Below, piece after piece: positions 11,268 through 37,463 of a stretch of 64,000 bases of DNA. The position numbers were made by a program, and so were the translations under genes. The notes under the pieces are model-generated. The model worked only from the letters and a program-made list of their open reading frames with translations, ran no database searches and was not told where the DNA came from. How positions within the stretch are numbered: the stretch's first letter is position 1; every line of letters starts with the position of its first letter. This stretch comes from Armatimonadota bacterium (lineage in GTDB: Bacteria; Armatimonadota; HRBIN16), in NCBI GenBank assembly GCA_026003175.1, contig BPGT01000004.1:62001-126000 (forward strand), given 5' to 3'.

Positions 11268-11742
11268 CGATGCTTATTCCCTCAACATCTACCACACGCC
11301 ACTTTTCGGTGGGGATTACCAGCCACTTGCGAGCGGGCTCCTTGCGCAGCTTCAACTGGATATCGGTCGGCTCATGGCGGCTGACCAGCCCCTGCTCTTC
11401 CCACCACGCCTCCACGCGCATACTCGCTGTCGCCTCTTTGCCGATAATGCTGATGACCGGCGTGCTATAGCGGACATGCGGTCGGATGCCGCGGCGAAAC
11501 GCCGAAGCCAACTCGATGCGCAGCCTTTCAGGTGAATAGCCAAAGGCTTCGAAATCGCTGGAGATGGCGTCCATCAGCGTGTTTAGGTCACGTCCTTCTA
11601 TCGCCTTACGGATTTCCTCCAGGCGATTTCGCACCACCTGCTCCTCGGGCGGGGTAGGCGTTGCTGCGATACGCCACATCACCAGCAGTGCTGTTATCAG
11701 CATCACCGCGCCGGAGATAGCCAACCATGTGGACCGCTTCAT
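11254..11742 (-). CDS. Membrane-anchored hypothetical protein with NTF2/SnoaL-like domain
   Basis: Residues 8-28 form one transmembrane or signal-anchor helix (LAISGAVMLITALLVMWRI). The remaining 130 residues have the helix-rich start and curved-sheet pattern of NTF2-like proteins: EEIRKAIEGRDLNTLMDAIS, then four strands ending KWRVVDVEGIS. No catalytic signature is visible and no function can be assigned. It overlaps the PHP phosphatase gene. On its strand a TATAAT lies at plus coordinates 11775-11780. Confidence 0.65.
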   Translation of the reverse strand: MKRSTWLAISGAVMLITALLVMWRIAATPTPPEEQVVRNRLEEIRKAIEGRDLNTLMDAISSDFEAFGYSPERLRIELASAFRRGIRPHVRYSTPVISIIGKEATASMRVEAWWEEQGLVSRHEPTDIQLKLRKEPARKWLVIPTEKWRVVDVEGISIDGLE

Positions 11743-11813
11743 TTCGCGCTGCCTCGCAGGTACATGCTGCTCAGATTATACCGGAAACGACCGGCTGTAT
11801 CCAACCAACGGTT

Positions 11814-11845
11814 GTGGAGGGCGAGGCACCTGCCGAGCCCTCCAC
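11814..11845 (+). repeat. Dispersed GC-rich palindromic repeat, copy 2
   Basis: This is the most symmetrical copy: the outer arms GTGGAGGG and CCCTCCAC pair over 8 bp around the shared core (GAGGCACCTGCCGAGCC). It lies between divergent genes. Confidence 0.75.
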
Positions 11846-11953
11846 TTGGGGATTACGACGGGGCGCGTCTTTCCAAGTATGTTGCACAGGTTGCATTGAA
11901 GAAGTGAAGCGTTTAATATATAGTGGATTGAAGGCACGTGCGTGCTATGTCGG

Positions 11954-11959
11954 TATAAT
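11954..11959 (+). promoter_or_regulatory. -10 element giving a probable leaderless mRNA
   Basis: TATAAT ends 10 bases before ATG 11970, and no Shine-Dalgarno sequence lies between. Transcription would begin within a few bases of the start codon. Confidence 0.45.
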
Positions 11960-11969
11960 AAGGGATAGA

Positions 11970-13049
11970 ATGATAAGCGAACCGCAAAAGCAAAACCCCG
12001 AATGGGAACAGGCGCTGCAGACTCTGGCAGCACAACGGGGGCGTGTGATGGTGCTGGGCGCACGGGATGTGGGTAAGACCACTTTCACCGCGCTGCTGGC
12101 GAACCGCCAGCTCGCCCACGGCACTCGTGTGGCTGTGGTAGATGCTGATGTGGGGCAATCGGAGATTGGGCCGCCTACCACCATCGGCGTGGGGCTGGTA
12201 GAGGTGCCGGTGCCCACCCTGCACGCGGTGGTGCCTCTGGCTATTTACTTCGTGGGGTCCAACACGCCGCGGGGGCGAATGCTGGAGACAGTGAATGGCG
12301 TGCGCGCAATGGTGGCGAAGGCTCAGGAGGCGGGAGCGGAGTCGGTGCTCATAGATACTACCGGCTTCGTCAGTGGGGCAGCGGCGCGTCGCCTGAAGTG
12401 TGCGAAGGTAGAAGCGGTGCATCCGCAGTTTGTGGTTGCCATCCAACGTAAAGACGAACTGGAGCACATCTTGCGCCCGCTGGAGAAGCGCAAACTGCAC
12501 CTTATCCGCCTGCCTGTGCCCGAGACGGTCGCCTTGAAGTCGCCGGAGATGCGCCAGCAAAGGCGCATGATGCGTTTCTTCCGGTACTTTCAGGATGCCC
12601 GGGCGCATACGTTCGCTCTATCCGACATCGCCTGCGAGGGCACGTGGTTCAATACAGGCACTCCGCTGGAGTGGAACGAGATCCACTTCCTGCAGGACAC
12701 CTTGCATTCGCGCGTGTTCTGGGCGGAGCGCACCTCGGAGCATCTGTTCGTGATTACCGATAAAGTGGTAGACGAGCGCGCTCTGGTCATCGTGGAAGAG
12801 ACCTTTCGGGTCGCGCATGTGACAACAGCGGGAGTACATCGCTTTGTCAAACTGTTGCTGGGGCTGCTGAACGCAGAAGGCGAGTGCTTAGCGATTGGTA
12901 TTCTGGAACGCATCGATTTTGTCAACCGTACCATCACCGTGCGCACTCCTTTGCGGGACGCCTCGGGGGTGGCTATTCTGCGTTTCGGCGGTTTGAACGT
13001 GCGCCCTGATGGCAAGGAAATCGGCGCGGTGAAGCCGGGTGAGATTTAG
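11970..13049 (+). CDS. Clp1/Grc3-like polynucleotide 5'-hydroxyl kinase
   Basis: The P-loop GARDVGKTTF (about residues 30-39) is followed by VVDADVGQSEIGPPTTIGVG, the signature of the CLP1_P kinase family, and by DTTGFVSG. In eukaryotes and archaea these enzymes phosphorylate the 5'-OH of RNA; bacterial versions are poorly studied. The C-terminal 130 residues form a beta-rich domain of unknown role. The frame remains open upstream to 11727, but ATG 11970 is preferred because it directly follows a -10 element and matches the family start. A tRNA/RNA-repair role would be inference only. Confidence 0.8.
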   Translation: MISEPQKQNPEWEQALQTLAAQRGRVMVLGARDVGKTTFTALLANRQLAHGTRVAVVDADVGQSEIGPPTTIGVGLVEVPVPTLHAVVPLAIYFVGSNTPRGRMLETVNGVRAMVAKAQEAGAESVLIDTTGFVSGAAARRLKCAKVEAVHPQFVVAIQRKDELEHILRPLEKRKLHLIRLPVPETVALKSPEMRQQRRMMRFFRYFQDARAHTFALSDIACEGTWFNTGTPLEWNEIHFLQDTLHSRVFWAERTSEHLFVITDKVVDERALVIVEETFRVAHVTTAGVHRFVKLLLGLLNAEGECLAIGILERIDFVNRTITVRTPLRDASGVAILRFGGLNVRPDGKEIGAVKPGEI

Positions 13050-14514: not shown

Positions 14515-14542
14515 GAATATTCATTGCGAAGGAGGTAGCGTC

Positions 14543-15400
14543 ATGCGAGTGAACACAAGGAGCACCATGCTGGCTGTTCTGGTGCTGGGGGCGTATGCCT
14601 TTGCGCAAGCAGACAGTATCGCCTGGCTCAACTCGTACGAGGATGCGTTACGGCAAGCCAGAGAGGGCAACAAACTGGTAATGGTCAGCTTCTACACCGA
14701 CTGGTGAGGCTGGTGTAAACGGCTGGACCAGGACACCTTCTCCAATGAGAAGGTGGTTCAGCTGGCGGGGCAGGTTGTCCCGTTGAAACTGAACGCCGAG
14801 AAAGAGGGCGTAGAAGTCGCCAAGAAGTACCGCGTGCGCGGCTATCCCACCGTGATGTTTGTGGATGCCGAAGGCGCAATAGTCGGCAAGATTGTCGGCT
14901 ATCTTCCCCCCGATGCGTTTGCCAAACAGTTTGTGCAGATTGTGGAGTCGATCAAAGCCTTGCCCGACCTTCTGCAGCGTGCGCAGAACGACCCCAAAGA
15001 TGCCGAAGCGCTCGCCCGGCTGGTAATGATATATGCCCAGCGTGAGGACGAGGCGAAGGCAACCGAGATGCTGTCGGCAGCGGAGAAGGCAGACCCTCGC
15101 AATCAGAAGGGGCTGTTAGGAGCTGCCTGCAACGCAGTTGGCGACATGTTCCAAAACGCCGGTCAATTCCAGAAGGCGATATCCTTCTTCCGTAAAGCGG
15201 CGACCCTCAGCAGGAAACCGGAAGAGGTATCGTACGCCCGTTTAAGCATCGCGGTGTGCTACCTGAGCATGCGCGATACGAAAAAAGCTTTGCCGGAGCT
15301 GGAGGCGGTTGCGAAGATGAAGGATGCTCCTGCCGGCGACCGCGAAACCGCCAGGCAGTTGCTGGAACGCTTTCGCAAACCGGCTCAGCAACGGAAATGA
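14543..15400 (+). CDS. Candidate selenoprotein: exported thioredoxin-like protein with UxxC motif and TPR-like tail (read through TGA 14705-14707)
   Basis: GAAGGAGG precedes ATG 14543 by 7 bases. After a signal peptide (ending near AFAQA), the thioredoxin fold reads FYTDW-TGA-GWCKRLD. The TGA (codon 55) sits exactly where relatives have the first, nucleophilic cysteine of CxxC; the resolving C58 is intact. The same frame continues without any indel through the cis-proline loop (RGYPTVMFVD) to 15400 and into a TPR-like helical region. This suggests selenocysteine insertion (UxxC). A TGC-to-TGA nonsense mutation or base-call error is the alternative. If TGA is a stop, only 54 residues are made. 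A terminator follows. Confidence 0.75.
14712..14737 (+). other. Candidate bacterial SECIS hairpin after the in-frame TGA
   Basis: GGTGT (14712-14716) pairs with ACACC (14733-14737). Inside, CTG (14723-14725) pairs with CAG (14729-14731) around the loop GAC. The loop begins with G, 18 bases after the TGA, the geometry known for bacterial SECIS elements such as fdhF. A competing hairpin of 8 bp lies at 14734-14755 (loop 14742-14747), whose loop starts with C. Confidence 0.4.
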
Positions 15401-15414
15401 TGGTGAACCTCAGT

Positions 15415-15441
15415 AAAAAGCCCTCGCCAGAGGGCTTTTTT
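15415..15441 (+). terminator. Rho-independent terminator
   Basis: GCCCTC (15420-15425) pairs with GAGGGC (15430-15435) around GCCA. It is flanked by an A-tract before and six T after, so it may work in both directions. It ends the thioredoxin-like unit. Confidence 0.9.
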
Positions 15442-15455
15442 CTTACGTAAACCTC

Positions 15456-15485
15456 TTGCACTGCGTCAGCAGCACAGGGTACACT
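15456..15485 (+). promoter_or_regulatory. Sigma-70-type promoter
   Basis: TTGCAC at 15456-15461 and TACACT at 15480-15485 are separated by 18 bases, ahead of the Lon-N protein gene. Confidence 0.5.
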
Positions 15486-15538
15486 CTATGCGTGATAAAC
15501 ACCAAATACAGGCAATATAACTACTGGGGAGTTTTTAC

Positions 15539-37292: not shown

Positions 37293-37344
37293 GGAGATGA
37301 AAATACAGATACCGCGCAGCGAATCGCCGCCGGGCGATACGCAT

Positions 37345-37433
37345 CCGCTAGGGGAGCCGACTACGGCTGAGACCTCGCGCAAGGCGAGGAACCCTCGGAA
37401 CCTGATCCGGGTAATGCCGGCGTAGGGAAGCGG
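37345..37433 (+). ncRNA. TPP (THI-element) riboswitch
   Basis: All conserved blocks are present in order: AGGGGAGCC, GGCTGAGA, the P3a hairpin CCTCG/CGAGG, ACCC, GAACCTGATCCGGGTAATGC and CGTAGGGAAG. P1 pairs CCGCT (37345-37349) with AGCGG (37429-37433). It should bind thiamine pyrophosphate. The gene it controls is a pseudopilin rather than a thiamine gene. Confidence 0.95.
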
Positions 37434-37463
37434 AGTGGCGAACGAACGAAGTGCGAAACCTCG

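Follow-up and report, generated by a model that had tools for sequence, protein, structure and literature searches.

Comparative genomic evidence for a TPR-tailed, thioredoxin-fold selenoprotein with an atypical candidate SECIS element in an Armatimonadota bacterium

A stretch of 64,000 nucleotides from the genome of an Armatimonadota bacterium (lineage HRBIN16; assembly GCA_026003175.1, contig BPGT01000004.1, positions 62,001 to 126,000 of the forward strand), hereafter called the window, contains a gene for a thioredoxin (Trx)-like protein with an in-frame TGA at codon 55. With high confidence, comparative genomics identifies this gene as a real selenoprotein gene. The best explanation, to which a probability of about 0.92 was assigned, is that the gene product is exported and combines a thioredoxin fold with a tetratricopeptide repeat (TPR) tail, and that the UGA at codon 55 would be decoded as selenocysteine (Sec). 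The UGA lies on the position of a conserved cysteine (Cys), selA, selB, selC and selD are found in the genome, and the UGA is kept in at least two distinct sequences. A hairpin directly downstream is a candidate, although atypical, bacterial selenocysteine insertion sequence (bSECIS).

Reading frame, homologues and selection

The frame that opens at the ATG reads FYTDW-U-GWCKRLD around codon 55, which is the sole in-frame stop before the end of the gene. The original prediction, made from the letters of the window, had placed the TGA on the first redox cysteine of a thioredoxin-like protein and had described 230 further open codons without indel. Both points were borne out, as the alignment to relatives puts the TGA on an otherwise invariant Cys55 and the frame runs undisturbed to its terminal TGA.

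Homologues were sought in 291 genomes of the phylum, 57 of which have one at E <= 1e-28. A TGA at exactly codon 55, with no further TGA inside the protein, was found in ten genomes (nine loci plus G109) that span five family groups (f1, f12, f13, f24 and f30), and all ten carry a tRNA-Sec scoring above 60 bits. The 31 full-length Cys homologues have TGC or TGT at this codon and no other residue was seen there, which is the kind of TGA and Cys distribution that the original prediction had looked for. In several genomes that lack tRNA-Sec (for example G047, G052, G083, G099 and G130), the homologue has the Cys form. W28, Cys58, cis-Pro102 and G119 are invariant among the aligned relatives. The tree requires about seven Sec/Cys changes (6-7 over bootstraps), at least two of them forced by well-supported branches, and the cleanest switch separates G021 (TGA) from G063 (TGC), which belong to the same genus with full support. 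Sec and Cys have thus replaced each other repeatedly within the family. One further genome, G183, was flagged with a single TGA and excluded, its position 55 being Cys. A wider contig search returned only Cys forms (from Planctomycetota, Omnitrophota and others), although its query patterns favour Cys and the result is not evidence of absence.

A shorter thioredoxin-like open reading frame (ORF) with the sequence FYTDT-TGA-PSCRWMDSNTYTN was observed in another genus (L103, G012:C40; also L041), in a genome with tRNA-Sec. With its TGA at the first redox position, it is probably a further UxxC selenoprotein.

Selection on the sequence after the TGA was examined by comparison with the copy of a congener (L023), which is 74% identical to the window gene and retains the TGA. 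Over the 230 downstream codons, nonsynonymous divergence (dN) is 0.146 and synonymous divergence (dS) 1.77; since the resulting dN/dS is 0.083 after a shared TGA, the part 3' of the TGA is translated and under selection as protein. The ratio upstream of the TGA is 0.31. The synonymous difference (pS) is 0.28 in codons 52-71 versus 0.44-0.90 in later windows of the alignment, and this low synonymous divergence directly after the TGA hints at an additional constraint on the RNA.

The thioredoxin fold proposed for the downstream part was recovered as well. The protein matches Thioredoxin_7 (PF13899; E 5e-17, 62.1 bits against a cut-off of 27), Thioredoxin_2 (PF13098; 58 bits, cut-off 27) and several TPR models in Pfam. 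AlphaFold2 with 34 homologues gave a model with a mean predicted local distance difference test (pLDDT) score of 93.4, in which Sec55 stands directly before helix 56-65, the first long one to follow the central strand in the Trx fold, and helices 123-278 form the TPR tail. A profile match above its cut-off, the redox pair and the cis-proline, which together characterize thioredoxin-like proteins, are all present.

Selenocysteine machinery of the genome

The host genome (4.1 Mb, 7 contigs) was searched for the sel genes whose absence, according to the original prediction, would have spoken against a selenoprotein. All of them were found: a tRNA-Sec (72.9 bits, cut-off 47), SelA (E 6e-152), a full-length SelB (414.6 bits) and SelD (384.5 bits), and the organism therefore has the full Sec pathway. 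SelD, whose gene (L064, G000:C1:45870-46793) likewise contains an in-frame TGA, at the active-site motif GUASK, is a second, classic selenoprotein. Some 33 nt downstream of the selD UGA lies a GUG loop on a 9-bp stem, in agreement with the published bSECIS model.

The candidate SECIS element

The 60 nt after the TGA fold into a single long hairpin (-27.1 kcal/mol, z -3.7), and only 1 of 200 shuffled sequences folded equally well. Its lower stem occurs in the same register in nine of the ten Sec genes, with changes on both sides at four pairs, and one position is occupied by G-C, C-G or U-A in different genes. When the partner strand was shifted by 1-3 columns, the share of paired cells fell from 72% to 23-39%. 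Among the ten Sec genes, which are mutually related, nine have all six core pairs, versus none of the 31 Cys genes (Mann-Whitney p 4e-5). The mean duplex energy is -16.6 kcal/mol in Sec genes versus -8.9 kcal/mol in Cys genes. Under synonymous recoding that kept the protein, 0 of 1000 sequences reached the Sec-gene mean, and the Cys genes equalled their own recodings. These comparisons point to an RNA hairpin under selection after the UGA.

The published canonical bSECIS model (PMC13188914) asks for a loop of 3-9 nt, 16-37 nt after the UGA, a stem of 4-16 bp, a minimum free energy of -7.5 or lower and a G in the first two loop positions. The hairpin lies within these limits in loop size (4 nt), distance (35 nt), stem (8 bp) and energy, but its CAAU loop has no G at position 1 or 2, so the canonical model does not accept it and it is classed here as a candidate atypical bSECIS. 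Some genuine selenoprotein genes likewise fall outside this model (PMC13188914). A search for canonical G-loop hairpins gave no separation of Sec from Cys genes (p 0.65); the two are told apart only by the stability of the whole element and by the lower stem.

The original prediction had assigned the SECIS role to another hairpin, CTG-GAC-CAG, whose G-starting loop lies 18 nt after the TGA. This hairpin is real, but the assignment did not hold: with 3 bp and -5.2 kcal/mol it stays under the published limits, and it is conserved no further than the sister gene, that is, in two congeners. A weaker version of the same idea, in which the gene encodes a selenoprotein while SelB binds such a shorter element near the UGA and not the conserved long hairpin, is the alternative that survives best, although it is still unlikely. 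It gains from the fact that the GAC loop starts with G, as the bSECIS model expects, where the long hairpin has none, and it loses from the fact that the long hairpin covaries and distinguishes Sec from Cys genes.

Other readings of the in-frame TGA

Two readings without selenocysteine are very improbable. The UGA could be a true stop, with a truncated TPR protein made from an internal start at GTG 14753, where a 215-aa ORF indeed opens. However, the 15 codons between the TGA and this GTG are the most conserved part of the gene (one amino-acid-changing difference) and include the resolving Cys, a start within the Trx domain would split the modelled fold, and the Cys homologues are single continuous proteins. 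Just as little is to be expected of a suppressor or unusual tRNA that would read the UGA as Cys or Trp. Relatives always have Cys here, so that insertion of Cys would also yield a working protein; but UGA is an ordinary stop in this organism, where the selenoprotein gene itself and 16 of the window's 49 large ORFs end in it, and the complete Sec machinery with its TGA-containing SelD accounts for readthrough without an extra tRNA, although no search was aimed at a tRNA-Cys with a UCA anticodon. The least probable reading, a nonsense mutation or sequencing error in a broken or misassembled gene, would need one base change (TGC or TGT to TGA) and would suit a gene missing in most congeners, but it can be set aside because the congener keeps the TGA with purifying selection downstream (at a dS of 1.8), identical TGA codons in nine other genomes in effect exclude a base error, and neither another in-frame stop nor an indel is present.

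Some observations weigh against the selenoprotein interpretation set out here. The hairpin contrast between Sec and Cys genes comes down to two strictly independent pairs on supported branches, neither of which contradicts the expectation. Moreover, most congeners do without the selenoprotein gene despite having the Sec machinery, and the gene is therefore dispensable.

Proposed function

According to the selenocysteine reading, SelB and its Sec-tRNA(Sec) are probably recruited by the mRNA hairpin, which spans nucleotides 13 to 57 after the UGA. The active site would be Sec-Gly-Trp-Cys, in which Sec55 would act as the nucleophile and be resolved by Cys58 by way of a selenenylsulfide. The signal-peptide-like N-terminal segment predicts export of the protein, which would act as a thiol-disulfide oxidoreductase beyond the cytoplasm, with re-reduction possibly by a DsbD-type protein. 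By analogy with CnoX (PMC8129009), the TPR tail may hold client or partner proteins.

Elsewhere in the genome, a pair of neighbouring genes (L068, G000:C1:313114-314123) was observed to encode DsbD-like thioredoxin domains; their products are possible redox partners of the selenoprotein.

Features and genomic context

Table 1. Features of the predicted selenoprotein gene and its flanks (positions in the window).
Feature	Position	Strand	Details and basis
Shine-Dalgarno-like AAGGAGG	14529..14535	+	7 bases 5' of ATG; seen in sequence
Thioredoxin-like/TPR selenoprotein gene, predicted exported	14543..15400	+	285 residues including Sec55; Pfam hits, AlphaFold2
Signal-peptide-like N-terminal segment MRVNTRSTMLAVLVLGAYAFAQA	14543..14611	+	from translation; low pLDDT in residues 1-20
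In-frame TGA, predicted Sec codon 55, opening the U-x-x-C motif	14705-14707	+	homologue codons
Resolving Cys58, codon TGT	14714..14716	+	invariant in 34-sequence alignment
Candidate SECIS hairpin	14720..14764	+	lower stem 14720-14729/14755-14764, upper stem 14735-14742/14747-14754, loop CAAU 14743-14746
cis-Pro102 of thioredoxin fold	14846..14848	+	invariant in 34-sequence alignment
C-terminal helical TPR region, residues 123-278	14909..15376	+	Pfam TPR hits, model helices
Stop codon TGA	15398-15400	+	
Terminator-like hairpin GCCCTC-GCCA-GAGGGC with T run	15419..15441	+	seen in sequence

The selenoprotein gene (Table 1) is flanked by a gene for a small conserved protein (P0002) and by a LON-substrate-binding-domain gene, which is followed by an isocitrate/isopropylmalate dehydrogenase gene, and the gene order is identical in G001. 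At the corresponding site (14515-15538), six other congeners, most of which have the Sec machinery, carry P0002 and the LON-domain gene adjacent to each other and no trace of the selenoprotein gene. The protein is thus an accessory selenoprotein in the genus, cleanly gained or lost. The window also contains a thiamine pyrophosphate (TPP) riboswitch at 37340-37445 (79.9 bits) and, at 11727-13049, a gene for a protein with a CLP1-type P-loop domain (PF16575), a domain typical of polynucleotide kinases of eukaryotes and archaea.

Relation to known selenoproteins and redox systems

The UxxC thioredoxin-like families in a 2026 inventory of selenoproteins include a thiol:disulfide interchange protein of PF13098 and several others, whereas TPR, tetratricopeptide, PF13899 and Armatimonadota do not appear in its text (PMC13188914). 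The original statement that no selenoprotein of this TPR-tailed family had been described thus stands for the TPR-tailed architecture only; for UxxC thioredoxin-like selenoproteins, including the PF13098 protein, it does not. In the open literature searched, no selenoprotein study on Armatimonadota (Armatimonadetes) was found. The protein extends the known UxxC thioredoxin-like type, and the atypical SECIS is the more novel part of the finding. A broader and tentative proposal, held at somewhat less than even odds, is that these genes form an unlisted family, the exported Trx7-TPR 'seleno-chaperedoxins' of Armatimonadota, with a distinct, longer class of bSECIS that is recognised through a covarying lower stem and whose apical loop does not begin with G, and with repeated switches between Sec and Cys within the family.

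The prokaryotic selenoproteome would gain a TPR-tailed thioredoxin, and the gene documents the use of selenocysteine in Armatimonadota. Standard annotation would end such a gene at the TGA or begin it at GTG 14753. Moreover, close relatives that differ in Sec or Cys and in having or lacking the hairpin, such as the genes of G021 and G063 in one genus, provide a natural test set for what bacterial SelB needs in an atypical SECIS.

Several known systems share part of this architecture. Thioredoxin_7-type or DsbD-like domains also occur in the Trx7/PDZ (seleno)protein NF041199 and in TsoB (NF045694), but both are weak hits far under their curated cut-offs (21.5 of 300 and 74.2 of 805), and NF041199 has a CxxU motif and a PDZ domain, unlike the window protein. 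The Sec-containing thioredoxin (PF00085) has the same UxxC motif, thioredoxin fold and cis-proline; it is small and single-domain, whereas the window protein adds the signal-like segment and the TPR tail and, in sequence and structure searches, is closer to DsbD-gamma and DsbH. The PF13098 UxxC selenoprotein shares the thioredoxin-fold domain with Sec first in the redox motif (PMC13188914). For this family, whose listed member is WP_011366075.1, the description in the inventory names no TPR tail, and Thioredoxin_7 fits the window protein slightly better than PF13098.

Among solved structures, the best relatives are DsbD gamma domains and 2kuc, a disulphide-isomerase from Bacteroides. Over the full length, the best is the E. 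coli chaperedoxin CnoX/YbbN (3qou). It also has a Trx domain followed by TPR helices and is the top full-length Foldseek hit (E 1e-7), but the whole-chain fold is not the same (TM-score 0.30, root-mean-square deviation 21.6 over the full length, 16% identity). E. coli CnoX has SxxC, contains no selenocysteine and has cytoplasmic GroEL as its partner (PMC8129009). DsbD gamma differs from the window protein in being part of a membrane reductase, in being Cys-only in the solved structures and in having no TPR tail, yet it is the best single-domain match (27% identity, TM-score about 0.7 by target) and, as predicted for the window protein, an exported thioredoxin fold.
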